In this document: positions 5,702-23,430 of the stretch, piece after piece
How positions within the stretch are numbered: the first letter of the stretch is position 1
How the letters are laid out: every line of letters begins with the position of its first letter
IMG/VR virus record: IMGVR_UViG_3300043773_000343
Coordinates: 1-23,430 of that record
Reading direction: 5' to 3' (one strand)
Length of the DNA stretch: 23,430 nucleotides
Origin: a virus
Notes under the pieces: model-generated
The model's database searches: none
What the model was told of the DNA's origin: nothing
The model's input: the letters and a program-made list of their open reading frames with translations, nothing else
Program-made: the position numbers and the translations under genes

Positions 5702-7678
5702 TTAACTGTATTTTAGTGATCCTCTTCCTGGTCTGTTTATTGGTGCTATTCCCTCTATTCCTTTTGGCTTCACATAAGGCACATTCCCCACTCTCTTATC
5801 ATTGTCAAGCCCTTTGTTAGGCAAAAATCTTCCTTTCTCTTGTTTCCTAAAGTATATCTGACGCTTCCATACATGATGGCAATAGGCCCCCCCGACGAAG
5901 CGGAAGATGTCGTAAGTTGACTGCCCTTCCGGTGCAAACTCACCATTGACTCCAGCATCACTCATTCTTTGTATATCCTCATACTTGAATACTGCCCCTG
6001 CCTTGCTCATACCTACCATCTCTATGCAAAAATCTCTGCTGTTAGCTGATAGATTTTGACTGTATGCATAGCGCAGCTTGTATAGTCCACTGTCACCCCA
6101 TTGACTTCTAGCTGACTCATCACCTTTAGCATAACTATCTAGTGATTGGCACTGCAGTACAAACTCTGATTCTGCATCTACATCTGTGACATCTTCCTCA
6201 CTGAGTAACTCCCACTCATCATTGATGTACTCAGCTTTTTCTTTTAGCTGTTCAATGAATACCTTGCCTTGCTCGTCAGTAAAATCTTGCTGTTCAGCAG
6301 AGCAGCACATCAAAGCTGCATCATCTTTTTTTTTTATAGAGCTGAGTACAGTAGCCGGATTGATAGGAGTAGATGATAAGTTATCAAATATGCTATTGAT
6401 TTGCTCAGGCGATAACATTGGGAAAGATGCCAAAGTAATAGCTTTAGCAGATGGTACTGTCAATACATTGGCTGTAGTCTGTACTATAATCTCAAGCAAG
6501 GATGCAATCTGAGCACCATTCAATGCTTGACTAGCTACATCTATAGGAGCTGCTGCAGTTTCTGCTGGTCCACTCACTGCTCCTGCCTCTTGAGCAATCT
6601 CAATGATGTCATTCTTTTCAATAATTACTTGTGATGGCACTCCATTGAATGCCAATATCTCCTCCACTGCAGTCGTTATGATGCGCTGAAATGGCTCAAT
6701 AACTTGCTTAGTGAATACATAAAGCGCAGCCTTTATCTCATCTGTATTAGAACCCAATCCATTGCCATCAGTTCTCACTCCCATGAGAAGAGGTGATGTC
6801 ACTCTATGCGCTACAATGATCTGTGATGTAGCCTCTTTGGAGAGGTACTCATACTGCTTGTCAGCATCAGTAATTGGAAAGGCTTGAATGTTGGGAGCTT
6901 CCTCCTTATTTTTAGTGAAAGTAATAAGAAACTTTCCAGCGTTGTGAGTTCCGGATAGATTCCTTTCAATTTCTCTACTGATCATTCTCTGAGCTTCAGG
7001 TGATGGCTCACCATTGGCAAAGTTGATGTGAAACGATGGAAAGAAACCATTGAGGATATTGTTCACATGGTACTCACTGATGTGCCTGGTTAGTTCAATC
7101 CAATCTTTACTACTGATGTAGTCGGGACGAGGATAGTACATTGATCCCACACTATGCAGATGGAAAAAAAGGACTTGTCTAGGTGATGGATCTTCGGGAT
7201 TGAAAAGAGGTACATATTCAGGCTTGTTCTTTTGCTTTCTGATGTCCATCCAGTCTCTGCTATACCACACTCCCACTACTTCATCCTCACTGTCACTCAT
7301 AGCCAATCTCACATTTTCATAGGGCAAATGATTGACCTTGACAATACGAGTATGGTCCATGCTATAGATGACCTCCCAATAAACTCCCCCCTGCAATTTT
7401 AAGTCTAAAGCTGTAGAGCCTAAAATACTATCAAGCTCAAGCTTTGCCATCTCCACCTGGCTTGCTGGATTCTCACTCTTGAAACCTTTACCGGCTATCA
7501 TGAATGAAATGCTATTCACTAGACTACCATGAACGGGTGAACTCTGATAGAGGTCTATCAAATAATTTGGCATTGCATTCCCATCACCCCATTCAACCCA
7601 TCCCTTTGTGGTCTCTTTCTCTACTTCCTCTACTTTGATGTATTTAGCAAATGCTAAATTAGTCAGATTATTGTCCAT
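5702..7678 (-). CDS. Portal protein fused to a C-terminal Cys-His (MuF-like?) domain
   Basis: The 658-residue product is the head vertex ring through which DNA passes. Residues 1-370 show the portal pattern: GWVEWGDGNAMPNYL, SPVHGSLVNS, LKLQGGVYWEVIYS, and a later helical stretch with RVTSPLLMGVRTDGNGL, which resembles the conserved portal core. Residues 370-445 are Ala-rich helices. From about 500 to 658 there is a second domain with SRDFCIEM, YEDIQRMSDAGVN and GGAYCHHVWKRQIYFRK. This end piece is common in Bacteroidota phages and is perhaps related to the MuF head-morphogenesis domain; that link is a guess. Between the two regions lies an A10 run in the coding strand (codons 449-451). Overlaps the upstream gene by 11 bp. 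Confidence 0.88.
   Translation of the reverse strand: MDNNLTNLAFAKYIKVEEVEKETTKGWVEWGDGNAMPNYLIDLYQSSPVHGSLVNSISFMIAGKGFKSENPASQVEMAKLELDSILGSTALDLKLQGGVYWEVIYSMDHTRIVKVNHLPYENVRLAMSDSEDEVVGVWYSRDWMDIRKQKNKPEYVPLFNPEDPSPRQVLFFHLHSVGSMYYPRPDYISSKDWIELTRHISEYHVNNILNGFFPSFHINFANGEPSPEAQRMISREIERNLSGTHNAGKFLITFTKNKEEAPNIQAFPITDADKQYEYLSKEATSQIIVAHRVTSPLLMGVRTDGNGLGSNTDEIKAALYVFTKQVIEPFQRIITTAVEEILAFNGVPSQVIIEKNDIIEIAQEAGAVSGPAETAAAPIDVASQALNGAQIASLLEIIVQTTANVLTVPSAKAITLASFPMLSPEQINSIFDNLSSTPINPATVLSSIKKKDDAALMCCSAEQQDFTDEQGKVFIEQLKEKAEYINDEWELLSEEDVTDVDAESEFVLQCQSLDSYAKGDESARSQWGDSGLYKLRYAYSQNLSANSRDFCIEMVGMSKAGAVFKYEDIQRMSDAGVNGEFAPEGQSTYDIFRFVGGAYCHHVWKRQIYFRKQEKGRFLPNKGLDNDKRVGNVPYVKPKGIEGIAPINRPGRGSLKYS
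6326..6335 (-). other. A10 slippery run inside the portal gene
   Basis: The coding strand reads ATA AAA AAA AAA GAT, giving ten adenines in a row and an in-frame A AAA AAA heptamer. It falls at codons 449-451, between the portal domain and the C-terminal domain. A -1 shift gives AGA then TGA; a +1 shift gives ATG ATG CAG CTT TGA. Either kind of slip would stop the protein at about 452-455 residues. Confidence 0.5.
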
Positions 7679-10349: not shown

Positions 10350-10574
10350 TTATTTCCTTTTTTCAAATATCTTCTCTATCACTGACAAGCCTAGTCCACC
10401 TCCTGCTATTAAGCACAGTGCATCATACATAAATTCAGGACAGATTTTGTCCTTATCTGTAACAGTTGCAATAAATGCAAGACTTATGACAGTGGCAGTA
10501 CAGATAAGAGCTGCAAATCTTTTGGAGCTCATTGGATCATCTGCACTGATTAGCTTTTTCATCAGTTCTCTCAT
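10350..10574 (-). CDS. Small two-TM membrane protein, holin-like (74 aa)
   Basis: The protein starts with a short amphipathic basic stretch and an SADDPMSSKRF segment. Two hydrophobic segments follow: about residues 20-38 (FAALICTATVISLAFIATV) and 50-66 (YDALCLIAGGGLGLSVIEK), with a KDK turn between them and a basic tail (KIFEKRK). The hairpin topology and size fit a class II holin. I recall similar proteins in Bacteroidota phages placed, as here, between head genes instead of next to the endolysin. Its ATG overlaps the protease stop (ATGA). It could be a second holin or antiholin, or a membrane protein for head assembly. Confidence 0.6.
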   Translation of the reverse strand: MRELMKKLISADDPMSSKRFAALICTATVISLAFIATVTDKDKICPEFMYDALCLIAGGGLGLSVIEKIFEKRK

Positions 10575-11200
10575 GGGTGCTCAAGTATGTTCAACTCTTC
10601 AATCATCTCATCTAAGATTCTTTCTACCTCATACTCCTCCATCATCTTCTCCTCATTCTCTAGGAAATACCCCTCTAATGACCATCCCTTAAACACTCCA
10701 TTCTTGACATCTTGCCACAATCCATCATCTTCCACATGGCCACCAATATACCAGGTACCGGGAGGAGTAGTGAAACCCAATGCTGCTGACTTATCTTTAG
10801 TGGCATCTGTCTGTATCCATGTCTCTACAATGTTCACCCCTTGCACCGGTACAGCATGTTCTAAGTTAGTATATTGGTGCATGGAATTTCTCATATACTT
10901 CTGAGCTATTGTCTTAATGGTCTCAGCTTTATAGGTAGCCATCCACTCCTCTTTAGTCTTGTCATTGTAGCGGTAGATAAGTTGGTCTGGTATCATTACG
11001 GGACCATACAACATGCGCTGCTCACCACTCTCCACTGCTGCGAACTTTAGTTCCTCTACTTTCTCTTGAGCTGAGAGTGCTATCCAGTTCACCATGATGG
11101 CAGGATTCTCTACCAATGACATGCAATAGACTCCAGTCTTTTGGTCATCCTCATTGATTACATACTCAATGATCTTCATTTTCTTTTTAGTATCTTCCAT
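10571..11200 (-). CDS. Prohead protease, XkdF-like (Peptidase S78 type)
   Basis: The 209-residue protein shows the pattern of XkdF-like prohead serine proteases. It has SLVENPAIMVNW (residues 28-39) and MLYGPVMIPDQLIYR (63-77). A conserved histidine follows in NLEHAVPVQGVNIVETW (His115), and the serine lies in FKGWSLEGYF (Ser174). His115 and Ser174 are the likely catalytic pair. It matures the prohead by cleaving scaffold and capsid proteins. The tail (residues 180-209) is very acidic and helical. A strong Shine-Dalgarno site lies eight bases before the ATG. The gene is followed by the small membrane protein (ATGA overlap) and the scaffold-like gene, the usual protease-scaffold-capsid order. 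Confidence 0.85.
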   Translation of the reverse strand: MEDTKKKMKIIEYVINEDDQKTGVYCMSLVENPAIMVNWIALSAQEKVEELKFAAVESGEQRMLYGPVMIPDQLIYRYNDKTKEEWMATYKAETIKTIAQKYMRNSMHQYTNLEHAVPVQGVNIVETWIQTDATKDKSAALGFTTPPGTWYIGGHVEDDGLWQDVKNGVFKGWSLEGYFLENEEKMMEEYEVERILDEMIEELNILEHP

Positions 11201-12995: not shown

Positions 12996-13189
12996 ATTAT
13001 TGCACTTAGTATTGTACTTATTAGTATAATCACGATTGAATAGTTGATGAACTTAGTGATGTACCTGCTCATCTTATTCTTGTACTTACCTTTGGCGATA
13101 CTACCCACCTCAGATTCCGTTGGTAGTTTCTGTTGTAGTAGTGCCAATGCCTCTGCTATGTGTGCAGGGTCTATCTTCTCTATTGTCAT
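12980..13189 (-). CDS. Small protein with C-terminal membrane anchor (69 aa)
   Basis: I chose ATG 13189, which overlaps the stop of the large tail gene (ATGA); a longer frame up to 13228 exists but lies wholly inside that gene. The protein has a helical, charged N-terminal part (residues 1-45: ALALLQQKLPTESEVG, then a basic GKYKNKMSRYITKF) and a single membrane segment at residues 49-67 (SIVIILISTILSAIIWL). A membrane-anchored protein between a tail-tip gene and the tape measure is odd. It might help tail assembly at the membrane, act in exclusion or lysis, or be a virion component. No family recognised. Confidence 0.6.
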   Translation of the reverse strand: MTIEKIDPAHIAEALALLQQKLPTESEVGSIAKGKYKNKMSRYITKFINYSIVIILISTILSAIIWLMK

Positions 13190-16100
13190 TCTGATCCGTT
13201 TTGAGTTACATTCACCTGAGCTGTCCAATATATTTCGTCTGTTGGATAGGTGCCATTGAGATTCCTTACATACAGATTAACCACTTCAGGATTGGTGGTA
13301 TCTGTTCTCCACAAAAGCTCCATTGGACCTATTGCACCGGGATCTACATCTATTATCCTATTGTGTGGAATATCACCGGTAGCAGTTCCACCTATATTGG
13401 TGATAATTGAGTATGTCTGTATGCTGTATATCTTGTCAGGATGCCAGGCTGGTGTATGTGATACCCATGTAGTAGCTATGAATGTCACAGTGACTGCATA
13501 AACTGAGTTAGGCAATGTTCTAAACTGACCAACAATGCCCTCAGTCAATGCGCTAGAAAATGTGTCCTTGCCAAACCATGTCATGATACCAGTTGCACTC
13601 TGATTCTTGAACTGAGTGTCATTGCCACCCCCATACCAAATACCTTTGTTTTGTACCAATAAATCTGAGCCACCTACTATGCTATTGCGAGCTTCTCCAG
13701 TTACTGTCAATTTATCACCCACCACTATAGTACCGGTAGCTGATGGGTCTTTTTTTATTGAAGCTCCATTGAATAGAGAGTCAAATCCTCCCTTTACTGC
13801 ACTTAGGGGTGATGTAGGTCTAGGCTTTAGTCCTCCCTGATTCTGACTGCGATAGCATTTGCTTACTGACGCATCCCAATAGTACCCTATCTGCTCACAG
13901 CAAATCTGACTACCTCCATTCATCCAATCTACTGAGCCATCTTTTAGTATTGCTATAGCTGTATCTGTACAGACATTGGGCAGCTCCACTGTGCTGAGCT
14001 TTTTAATCAATGTCACTGTTGTGCTCTGATTCATTCCCATGTTGTAACTATCCACAGCCAGTACTCTCCAGTATGAATTGAAAAGAAAGATGCTGTCATT
14101 GAATTGCAGATTGAGAATGTCAGTCACATCTAAATTGAATTGCGCTGTGAGTACCTTGCTTTCCGGGCTGTATAGCTCTTGCAGATAATTGTTGTAGTAC
14201 TTCAAAAATCTAGTATTTGCAGGAGCTGAGATGATGGGATGCATGGGTATCTCCTGAGAGAAATTCAAGTCCTCACTGCTGAGGTCAGGCAGCAATGTAT
14301 CATACTGCCCAACAAAAGGAACTTCCATACCATCAGGTCCACTAATAATGATTCCACCTTCCGGATTGATATGGAACATATCATCAAAATTGAAATACAA
14401 AAATCTTGCACCTGGTGTGACAAATTGGTAGTCATTATCTACAAACTTTGGTAGATGCCAAGTAGTGTGATTGTTCAGCATCTGATTGGGAGTAGGACAA
14501 GCCTCTAGCTGCACCGTATTTTCTCCCGTAGTAAAATCACTCTGAGTGTCATACAAGTCTAGTGCTCCAAACAATCTGCCCACTGTCTTATATGCCTGAT
14601 TAGCTACATCACTTCCCTCGCTGTATGTGAACACTTGCTTTCTTGTTTGGTACTCTGATGATGGAATGATAGTCATCTCTGCATTTTCATCTAGCTTGAT
14701 TGTCCAATCAACAATGCCTCCACCGGTCAAGTACTCATTCATGGTCATTATATCAATTACCCCGTAATTGGAGTAATTAGGAATGGCTACTGAGTTGGTC
14801 AGCTTCATGACATCGCGTAGGAAATCAAGTAGCTGATAGTTTTGTGGTGCCATTTGAATAGCACTAAATGGAGTAGCTAGTGCTATTTGTACTCTTTGAA
14901 AATCAAAGCTAGTACATCTGCAAATGATTTTTCTTGCACCTCCATCTGTTGGGTCACCAAAAGCAGCAAAGCAAGGCTGTATGGTTTGTCCTGCTGTAAA
15001 CCAATAACTATTATTACCGGTTATTTGTGGGTCATTATTGAAAGCTTGTACTGTGAGCTCTTGATTCTGTATTGGCAGACCTGCCACTGTATAAGTTGTG
15101 AAACCTATAGCTGTATCTCCACCCACTCCACTAAAATCACCTAGAGGTATTGCATTCAATCTAGCCTCTATTGGATAGTCAGCAGTTCCGCTGTCAAGAT
15201 TAGGTCCACCTGTATTGATGGTACCACTCATTTGCAGATTCCATCCTGCTATTAAACTAACCCCATCCACCAAAAATGCTGGTACTACAGTTGTTTGAGG
15301 TGGGTATAAGAAACCAGGCACAGCACTTATCTCACATCTCACTGTACCTCTAAATGAGAACTGATAATAGCCAGTATTGGGTATAGTGTATGTGTTGGTG
15401 AGTGCATCAAAATTGCTGCCTATGTCTATCTGCTCACTGTATGCTCCTAGTGTGGGTGCAATATAAGTACTACCACTCAACACTGACCAGCTTAGTGTCT
15501 CATCAGCTGTCTGATAAGCCTTAAACTGTATGTTATTGGCACCGTTGTCATGGTACTTGATAAAGCCATCAGCACCAATAAATGGCATGCACATCTTATT
15601 CAGCTGAGTAGTTAGCTCAGTGCTTAGTTGTATTCTCCTTTTGTTCTGACTTGATAAATAGTCACTAATCTTATCTACTAGATATTTCAGCTTTATGCAT
15701 GGAGTTAAGTCCTGTGCATTGATCATATTGTCAGGCTGAAAAAATGCAGTTGGTCCAAACCCATAAGAATAGGGTGCATCTACATAAGTACCGGTCAGAT
15801 TAGATGGATAAGACATAAACTGCTGACCCCTATCTATCAATGCCCACAAAAGCTTGTGATCACTGTAGTCATTGGTGCCAATTACACCTCCATTGTTTAC
15901 CCTCCTACAATTAGTAAAGTCAACACCATGCTCAAGGTCTGTGAAATCAAGTACACTAAAATCAATATCTTTGAGATTAGTACCTAGATCAACAGCATCC
16001 CCAAAGAACACTATTGAAAAGTCAGACATCTTGTTGTATTTGATAAATGACTTTTTGAACTGCACAAAACCCTCAGCGATTGGCACAGTATCCACTGTCA

Positions 16101-16344
16101 AAATAGCTTTGAACTTCCTCTTGATGTCATTAGTTGATACTATATTGAAATCGCTTTGGAGACCAAATAGATTGCAGTTGTTTTGTGTAGCTGGTATGCG
16201 GAACTCCTGACTATAAACATCACCACTTTCTAGAGTAGTGATGCTATTAAAGTTGAAATTCATGGAGATGGTATCTTGACCATAAAGGTCTAGTACATAG
16301 CCAGTGCCTGACTGATCGTAAACTGTTAAAATCACATCGTTCAT
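13186..16344 (-). CDS. Large tail protein, probable tail tip or baseplate-like component (1052 aa)
   Basis: This is the largest gene in the window. The N-terminal 120 residues hold a beta domain with the segment VYSQEFRIPATQNNCNLFG. I associate it with large tail proteins of Bacteroidota phages (the S-x-x-F-x-I-P-A-T-x-x-N pattern). The rest is beta-rich, with many Tyr, Asn and Thr, as in tail-tip or receptor-contact proteins. Near residues 790-830 there is a cysteine cluster (VCTDT, ICCEQIGYYW, SKCYRS) that may form disulphides or bind metal. ATGA junctions with the gene before and the gene after show tight coupling. Tip/central hub is the likely role; a host-binding role for the C-terminal third is an inference. 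Confidence 0.65.
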   Translation of the reverse strand: MNDVILTVYDQSGTGYVLDLYGQDTISMNFNFNSITTLESGDVYSQEFRIPATQNNCNLFGLQSDFNIVSTNDIKRKFKAILTVDTVPIAEGFVQFKKSFIKYNKMSDFSIVFFGDAVDLGTNLKDIDFSVLDFTDLEHGVDFTNCRRVNNGGVIGTNDYSDHKLLWALIDRGQQFMSYPSNLTGTYVDAPYSYGFGPTAFFQPDNMINAQDLTPCIKLKYLVDKISDYLSSQNKRRIQLSTELTTQLNKMCMPFIGADGFIKYHDNGANNIQFKAYQTADETLSWSVLSGSTYIAPTLGAYSEQIDIGSNFDALTNTYTIPNTGYYQFSFRGTVRCEISAVPGFLYPPQTTVVPAFLVDGVSLIAGWNLQMSGTINTGGPNLDSGTADYPIEARLNAIPLGDFSGVGGDTAIGFTTYTVAGLPIQNQELTVQAFNNDPQITGNNSYWFTAGQTIQPCFAAFGDPTDGGARKIICRCTSFDFQRVQIALATPFSAIQMAPQNYQLLDFLRDVMKLTNSVAIPNYSNYGVIDIMTMNEYLTGGGIVDWTIKLDENAEMTIIPSSEYQTRKQVFTYSEGSDVANQAYKTVGRLFGALDLYDTQSDFTTGENTVQLEACPTPNQMLNNHTTWHLPKFVDNDYQFVTPGARFLYFNFDDMFHINPEGGIIISGPDGMEVPFVGQYDTLLPDLSSEDLNFSQEIPMHPIISAPANTRFLKYYNNYLQELYSPESKVLTAQFNLDVTDILNLQFNDSIFLFNSYWRVLAVDSYNMGMNQSTTVTLIKKLSTVELPNVCTDTAIAILKDGSVDWMNGGSQICCEQIGYYWDASVSKCYRSQNQGGLKPRPTSPLSAVKGGFDSLFNGASIKKDPSATGTIVVGDKLTVTGEARNSIVGGSDLLVQNKGIWYGGGNDTQFKNQSATGIMTWFGKDTFSSALTEGIVGQFRTLPNSVYAVTVTFIATTWVSHTPAWHPDKIYSIQTYSIITNIGGTATGDIPHNRIIDVDPGAIGPMELLWRTDTTNPEVVNLYVRNLNGTYPTDEIYWTAQVNVTQNGSE

Positions 16345-20349: not shown

Positions 20350-20613
20350 TCAAAGGCTTAAAGGATGCATGACATTATTGTAGCTTTTCATGTAGCTGAT
20401 GTGAGCAAAGATTTGAGCAGCTGGAAGGTCAGTGATCATCATGAACTTTGTTAGGTCTCTATTTGCTAGTTCCTCAATGATGTGCCACCATCCATATTGC
20501 CCTGTGAGGCTATTGCCTGCTCTATCATTGTCAGGCTCTCCTCCATCTGCTTCATCATCTGCTGGTCTAAGAACTTGAGGGAACTGCTCAGCAAATCTTC
20601 TCTGAGCAGACAA
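20350..20613 (-). CDS. Second segment of tail assembly chaperone, reached by -1 shift
   Basis: This 87-codon frame is open from the T9 run to TGA at 20350 and runs 116 bp past the stop of the 198-aa gene that it overlaps. It has no ATG before its last third. The part that looks like real protein is GWWHIIEELANRDLTKFMMI, followed by DLPAAQIFAHISYMKSYNN. The Pro/Arg-rich stretch before it reads like an out-of-frame shadow. A -1 shift from the upstream frame at T9 would fuse the two, as in the gpG/gpGT pair of lambda-type phages. TTG 20613 is a possible but unlikely start. The segment might also be an orphan after a mutation. Confidence 0.45.
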   Translation of the reverse strand: MSAQRRFAEQFPQVLRPADDEADGGEPDNDRAGNSLTGQYGWWHIIEELANRDLTKFMMITDLPAAQIFAHISYMKSYNNVMHPLSL

Positions 20614-21062
20614 AAAAAAACCATTGCACCATTCACATAGGCCATATCTACCTCTCTGAATAGATCAGCATTTTTTATGTGAACATTGCTATCATATTTC
20701 TCTATCTCGTAATTGTGCATGAACTCTGATACTACCGGTCTGTAAAGAATAGACATGATCTTAGGTAGATTGTTAGTGAAATCTGAACTCACTAGCTGAT
20801 TGAGGTCTAAGTACTCACCAAAGCTCATTGCCTCTAGGTTTGGATGGAACCCCATCACCTTGTCACCTATCCTTATGTATTTCTCTAGCTTATTCTGATT
20901 GTAGTCCTTACACTCTTCAATGAACTTAGTGATAGAGGGAGCGATGTCATCCATTGACTTTTCTCTGAGTTGCTCCTTAGTGTAGCCAGTGACTACTTGC
21001 GCCTGGAGGAAAACATTATCTCCGGCATTCTTAAAGTCTATGTACTTGCCTAGTGTAATCAT
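20466..21062 (-). CDS. Putative tail assembly chaperone, first component (198 aa)
   Basis: This helical protein begins MITLGKYIDFKNAGDNVFLQ. Its centre carries YIRIGDKVMGFHPNLEAMSF then GEYLDLNQL, and IMSILYRPVVSEF (about residues 103-115). I have seen this last pattern in proteins encoded near the tail genes of Bacteroidota phages, where they are taken for gpG-like tail chaperones. Tail chaperones bind the tape measure during tail building. The end in frame (LKFLDQQMMKQMEESLTMIE) is a normal amphipathic helix. A T9 run within it may shift ribosomes or polymerase to a second frame. The ATG overlaps the small terminase stop (ATGA). A structural role other than chaperone remains possible. Confidence 0.55.
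   Translation of the reverse strand: MITLGKYIDFKNAGDNVFLQAQVVTGYTKEQLREKSMDDIAPSITKFIEECKDYNQNKLEKYIRIGDKVMGFHPNLEAMSFGEYLDLNQLVSSDFTNNLPKIMSILYRPVVSEFMHNYEIEKYDSNVHIKNADLFREVDMAYVNGAMVFFCLLREDLLSSSLKFLDQQMMKQMEESLTMIEQAIASQGNMDGGTSLRN
20612..20620 (-). other. T9 run, candidate programmed frameshift or transcript slippage site
   Basis: The coding strand reads ATG GTT TTT TTT TGT in the upstream frame, nine T residues in a row, which contains the in-frame heptamer T TTT TTT. The -1 frame continues as TTG TCT GCT and stays open to 20350. It lies about 50 codons before the end of the 198-aa gene. Confidence 0.45.
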
Positions 21063-22572: not shown

Positions 22573-23085
22573 TCACCCTTTCTTTTTTCTACTCCTTTTT
22601 ATTCTTGCTGGAACATCTGAGGGGGTACTAGGTGGGTCAGTTGGTGGGTCAGCTTGTACTACAGTGCCATTATTCATATCTTTGAGTAATTGGTCTAAAG
22701 TAGTGAATACCTCACCTCCACATGAACTACATGAGAAACCTCTGAAGTGAGGGTCTTGTGTGTGGAATATCTCACTGAGTGTATCTCTGTCCTCTTTCAC
22801 TATGAACTTTTGCTTAGTCACTCTCTCAGCTATATCTTTGAGGATAGACAGTTGTTTCTTTGTAAAGATCATTGGCCACTTGCTAGCCGGGCAGTCAAAA
22901 TGTTTCAGTGAAGCTTTTGAGCGCAGATGGCATCCACATGGCTTGAAGGTCACTCCATCTATTGTTACCTGGTCTTGAAAAAGGTCCATGAACTTGCCAC
23001 ATGATCCAGTGCTTGATACATAGACAGGACATGCCATGCAGATGTCTAGTCTCTCTTTTCTTTGTTGTGCTGTTGTAAATAACAT
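22573..23085 (-). CDS. Cysteine-rich zinc-ribbon-like phage protein (170 aa)
   Basis: The first 70 residues carry many cysteines: ICMACPVYVSSTGSC (Cys16, Cys19, Cys29), then KPCGCHLRSK and HFDCPASKWP. This fits one or two zinc sites of the type seen in small proteins of Bacteroidota phages (pattern R..C..C........C....C.C.L..K....CP..KW). A second CxxC (CSSCGG, about residues 118-123) follows a helical part. The last 30 residues are a Pro-rich linker and a basic end (RIKRSRKKKG), suitable for nucleic-acid binding. It overlaps the sigma-like gene by 40 bp and ends in a terminator. Its exact role is unknown; a regulator or nucleic-acid-binding protein is a guess. Confidence 0.65.
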   Translation of the reverse strand: MLFTTAQQRKERLDICMACPVYVSSTGSCGKFMDLFQDQVTIDGVTFKPCGCHLRSKASLKHFDCPASKWPMIFTKKQLSILKDIAERVTKQKFIVKEDRDTLSEIFHTQDPHFRGFSCSSCGGEVFTTLDQLLKDMNNGTVVQADPPTDPPSTPSDVPARIKRSRKKKG

Positions 23086-23430
23086 ATATGATCTATTAGT
23101 AATTGTTTAGCTGTGTTGACTGCTCTGAATACATAGGTGAGGGGTATGTCTGTGGCATCGCTGATCTCCTTGTACTTAAATCCCATCAGATAGAGCTCCA
23201 AAGCCTTGCTCTCAAAGTCAGGGAGTCTGCTGATGATGATGTCTATATTCTCTCTATTGACCAGGCTGGCAATATCCGGCACCTTTGTTTGTAAGGCATC
23301 CTCAGTGATCTCACTCATGTCATTAGTGAACTTGCGATGAGTGTAATAAAATCGGCTTGTTGAACTATTGGCAGCTAATCTGAGTGAGCAATCCATATAA
23401 GCCTTGAATTTGCCTCTAGCTACAATATCA
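23046..23430 (-). CDS. Sigma-70 region 4-like helix-turn-helix protein, 5' partial
   Basis: The frame stays open to the right edge (it reads DIVARGKFKAYM before the ATG at 23396). The gene therefore very likely begins outside the window, and the ATG at 23396 is an internal Met. The last 60 residues carry RLPDFESKALELYLMGFKYK then EISDATDIPLTYVFRAVNTA. This has the spacing of a sigma region 4.2-type helix-turn-helix: a first acidic helix, a GFKYKEIS turn, and a recognition helix with an Arg. It may be a phage transcription regulator of late genes, acting on promoters such as the one near 22.44 kb. A homolog of small regulatory or terminase-linked HTH proteins is possible too. Confidence 0.65.
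   Translation of the reverse strand, partial: DIVARGKFKAYMDCSLRLAANSSTSRFYYTHRKFTNDMSEITEDALQTKVPDIASLVNRENIDIIISRLPDFESKALELYLMGFKYKEISDATDIPLTYVFRAVNTAKQLLIDHICYLQQHNKEKRD

Follow-up and report, generated by a model that had tools for sequence, protein, structure and literature searches.

A conserved A10 run as a candidate slippage site in a fused phage portal gene

Can a single phage portal gene supply two forms of the portal protein? The question is raised by IMG/VR virus record IMGVR_UViG_3300043773_000343 (positions 1 to 23,430; this whole stretch of 23,430 nucleotides is referred to here as the window), in which a portal gene is fused to an additional C-terminal domain (658 amino acids [aa]; positions 5702 to 7678, minus strand) and ten consecutive A residues (positions 6326 to 6335) lie between the two parts. 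The first-pass annotation of this DNA had proposed that slippage on the A10 run yields portal-only protein together with full-length protein carrying a "MuF-type" domain. Conservation of the run among relatives strongly supports the core of this proposal; the name given to the domain is not supported. We estimate a probability of about 0.75 that the run is a conserved slippage site, giving rise to a complete portal protein without the C-terminal domain in addition to the full-length fusion.

The run was confirmed on the minus-strand sequence (i.e., ten T on the plus strand), where its first A closes codon 448 (ATA), the other nine fill codons 449 to 451, and GAT, codon 452, follows directly (ATA AAA AAA AAA GAT). 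Insertion of an A, or a -1 shift, leads to a TGA at positions 6321 to 6323 and to a 452-aa product ending in SSIKKKR, and loss of an A, or a +1 shift, leads to a TGA at positions 6310 to 6312 and to a 455-aa product ending in KKKMMQL. The computed masses are 73.6 kDa for the full-length portal and 50.3 and 50.6 kDa for the two short forms; the arithmetic of the first-pass annotation (452 and 455 aa; ~50 versus ~73 kDa) was thus right. Within the window alone, a run of nine or more A is mildly unusual (three overlapping matches versus a mean of 0.44 expected, with as many in 6 of 100 shuffles); the strong evidence comes from comparison among relatives.

Six scans of viral contigs yielded 195 distinct portal genes, including that of the window, with a lowest pairwise core identity of about 27%. 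The junction is covered in 189 of these genes, of which 163 carry an uninterrupted run of A9 to A11 (96 A10, 61 A11, and 6 A9) and 26 have no run. The run is kept across three codon phases, with differing flanking residues and with differing modules on either side. When the genes are clustered at 70% core identity, no cluster is mixed: 24 consist entirely of genes with the run and 12 entirely of genes without it. A tree of 33 representatives, made before the last scan, requires five changes of state; this count does not separate gain from loss, but it would be compatible with an old element that was lost several times. Runs of ten or more A occur 54 times in 110 kb of portal open reading frames (ORFs), whereas the flanking DNA, counted on the same strand over 331 kb, contains one. 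The runs also have the length expected of a programmed transcriptional slippage site, which is about nine or more A or T in a transcribed gene, the threshold of nine being taken from work on transcriptional slippage (PMC1088944). A search for relatives in bacterial genomes found none. The nearest cultured relatives infect Bacteroidota.

Stops in the shifted frames lie close to the run. The nearest is found on average 1.8 codons after it versus 5.2 codons for sites picked at random within these genes (P about 1e-4), and the farther one 11.3 versus 18.8 codons (P = 0.004). Upstream of the run, the portal core (residues 1 to 355; positions 6614 to 7678) is the confident part of an AlphaFold model computed with 26 sequences (mean predicted local distance difference test [pLDDT] score, 68.7). 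Solved portals in the PDB align with it over ~340 columns, the best match being a 370-residue gene transfer agent portal chain (343 columns aligned). Both this fold and the profile match of the N-terminal part to PHROG portal families (E value, 8.5e-66) place the gene among phage portal proteins; matches to Pfam PF04860 and TIGR01540 were below their cutoffs. The core is followed by a helical module (residues 388 to 432; positions 6383 to 6517), seen in the model and, from alignment A1, missing in many relatives, whose N-terminal part is often ~350 to 375 aa, the length of a compact portal. The run itself lies in a predicted disordered linker (residues 435 to 466; positions 6281 to 6376; pLDDT under 50). 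Because the modeled portal fold is complete before the run and the N-terminal part of these relatives matches a compact portal in length, termination at the run is predicted to leave a whole portal. With close stops after the run and a complete fold before it, the alternative product would be a sensible one. An internal restart after the run was rejected, since a downstream Met is confined to some clades and is not conserved.

Selection on the encoded residues could in principle account for the run, which would then encode a needed lysine-rich linker, the A residues being a by-product of codon choice. Nearly all runs do encode Lys-Lys-Lys (KKK), and AAA is the commoner lysine codon in many clusters. 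However, no junction among the 189 has a KKK interrupted by AAG. Wherever the run is missing, its lysines are missing too: all 26 junctions without the run lack KKK, and these relatives have no lysines there. Synonymous interruption of the run in related phages, which the first-pass annotation had named as a refuting result, was thus not seen at these junctions. Elsewhere in the ORFs of the same loci, 0 of 102 KKK sites reach A10, and in one clade (L085) a second KKK shortly 3' of the run is coded mostly by AAG. The run is also kept in clades with 51% G+C and an AAA use of 0.32 to 0.37, and A10 is kept with two lysines followed by Asn in three loci (AAC) and in one further locus (AAT). With the encoded residues and the local codon usage taken as given, at least ten A would be expected by chance in all 19 run-bearing clusters tested with a probability of about 10^-14.7, the clusters being counted as independent. 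The codon null, the KKK controls, and the lack of broken KKK together indicate that the run is held by selection on bases and not on residues alone, and we consider the linker explanation improbable. In 948 flanking ORFs, runs of A10 or longer are absent (0 observed versus 4.4 expected), whereas A9 is not depleted (11 versus 8.9); this difference hints, in what is by itself a weak test, that in these phages a cost of slippage sets in near ten A.

Two further explanations place the role of the run in the DNA. Homopolymers readily mutate, and replication slippage could toggle the C-terminal domain on and off as a form of phase variation; an A9 that is out of frame (L021) would fit such a switch. 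This is, however, the sole out-of-frame run and the only frame-switching length variant found among the assemblies of close relatives. It is located about 20 bases from a contig end, every other run is in frame at a length of 9, 10, or 11, and we consider a DNA-level switch about as improbable as the linker explanation. Two other loci (L029 and L049) have frame changes located away from the run, which are probably sequence errors. Alternatively, the run could be a recombination joint for module swapping with no role in expression, as modules before and after it vary between close relatives. Yet junctions whose modules have stayed in place retain the run as well, it persists through deep divergence, and its length is held at 10 to 11; a joint would also leave the near shifted stops unexplained, and we regard this as the least probable of the explanations considered.

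The remaining alternative concerns the agent of slippage. The ribosome could slip, either by a -1 frameshift at A_AAA_AAG or A_AAA_AAA or by sliding on AAA codons, with the same short portal as the outcome. One of these heptamers is present in the correct frame inside every run, repeated AAA codons are known to make ribosomes slide (PMC4363877), and in the window a short stem may form just 3' of the run (minimum free energy z score, -1.3). The heptamer requires only seven A, but no A7 or A8 was found at the junctions, where 157 of the 163 runs are 10 or 11 long. An in-frame slippery heptamer is thus in place, whereas a stimulating Shine-Dalgarno-like element or downstream structure is not: no consistent stimulator of either kind was found, Shine-Dalgarno-like bases being present in 3 of 19 clusters, in one of them 30 nucleotides away. 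Ribosomal slippage therefore appears unlikely, though less so than the three explanations above. On account of the run lengths of 9 to 11, the lack of a consistent ribosomal stimulator, and the known transcriptional slippage at such A runs, we favor slippage by RNA polymerase over slippage by the ribosome roughly two to one.

The C-terminal domain (residues 468 to 658; positions 5705 to 6277), a domain of unknown function, is well conserved in sequence among relatives, and the full-length product is therefore presumably made and used. A model of the domain of moderate confidence (pLDDT 65) has BFVD matches to predicted proteins of uncultured phages, several of them named XkdF and one of them a portal, and retrieved no solved structure in a PDB fold search. 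Pfam gave no match of note for the domain and NCBIfam gave none, and PF04233 was found neither in the Pfam scan nor in a six-frame search of the whole record. On these profile and fold searches, with no direct comparison with SPP1 gp7 made, we rejected a MuF identity, and the "MuF-type" label is unsupported. The domain resembles parts of the XkdF-named proteins of uncultured phages, and the record has a separate gene for an XkdF-like protease (positions 10571 to 11200), an arrangement suggestive of a domain that moves among head genes. Six loci (L004, L015, L022, L039, L084, and L089) have an extra module of ~105 aa that directly follows the run and precedes the C-terminal domain, matching phrog_2859 (unknown function; E value, about 1e-26).

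If RNA polymerase slippage is the mechanism, the polymerase would realign on the run in a fraction of transcripts, leaving one A more or fewer. Translation of a slipped transcript would stop within a few codons and give a complete portal that lacks the C-terminal domain, and an unslipped transcript would give the full-length fusion. Both forms could enter the portal ring, and the run would then set the number of subunits with the extra domain. We can envisage, tentatively and a little short of an even chance, that transcriptional slippage builds a mixed portal ring in a large, mostly uncultured phage group, with a set share of subunits carrying the C-terminal domain and with functional asymmetry of a symmetric ring arising from one gene. 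Were slippage to occur at 20 to 50%, as in known cases, the domain would still be present on most subunits, and the picture of a domain present in few copies, drawn in the first-pass annotation, may not hold.

Several points weigh against the slippage interpretation. The 26 relatives without the run and the cultured Nonlabens phage P12024S have the fusion all the same. Since some lineages retain the fusion without the run, the run is not indispensable for it, and a role in setting copy number is weakened. The loci are best matches to few seeds, so that 163 of 189 and the other proportions are not unbiased frequencies, and the clusters are not fully independent, so that the figure of 10^-14.7 is overstated to an unknown extent. 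The lineages with a fused portal that lack both run and lysines (L092, L139 to L142, L194, L206, L215, L219, L220, L278, L280, and others) provide natural controls.

Three other genes of the window, all on the minus strand, deserve mention. A gene at positions 20466 to 21062, with a weak match to a PHROG family of unknown function, has nine T in its coding strand (positions 20612 to 20620; GTT TTT TTT TGT, codon 148 of 198), a possible second slippage site. A small protein (positions 23046 to 23396) weakly matches the RNA polymerase sigma factor family phrog_1740 (E value, 1e-5) and could bear on transcription in this phage. The longest protein in the window (1,052 aa; positions 13186 to 16344) has no PHROG match.

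A literature search for portal together with slippage or frameshift returned no report of such an element in the searchable papers. If the run is indeed a slippage site, it would be a recoding site in a portal gene not reported in those papers, what is annotated as one portal ORF may, in many environmental phages, give rise to two proteins, and whether portal subunits are identical or mixed becomes a testable question. When slippage does nothing but shorten a product, sequence comparison is described as having difficulty in detecting it (PMC1088944); here, deep sampling appears to expose it through codon-level conservation.

A close parallel is dnaX of Thermus thermophilus, in which transcriptional slippage on A9 truncates about half of the product (PMC1088944). 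In both genes the zero frame encodes the full-length protein, and slippage makes, or would make, the gene supply a shorter functional form as well; dnaX encodes bacterial DNA polymerase subunits and its slippage is proven, whereas the present case concerns a phage portal and slippage that we infer. In Citrobacter rodentium tssM1, A11 directs transcriptional slippage at 20 to 25%, likewise without ribosomal stimulators, and a multisubunit machine needs both length forms and their ratio (PMC4256274). There, the zero frame gives the short form and slippage restores the long one, the reverse of the arrangement proposed for the portal. Among phage morphogenesis genes, lambda gpG/gpGT and the coat protein frameshifts of T3, A118, and PSA also provide two C-terminal forms in a ratio (PMC5009743), but by ribosomal frameshifting, in tail chaperone or coat genes, and usually through extension rather than truncation. 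Fusion of a portal with a following domain in a single gene is known from the portal-MuF genes of Microbacterium phages (PMC7302621), for which no slippage run is reported, unlike the present gene, whose domain is not detectably MuF; in SPP1, by contrast, the portal (gp6) and MuF (gp7) proteins are encoded by separate genes.
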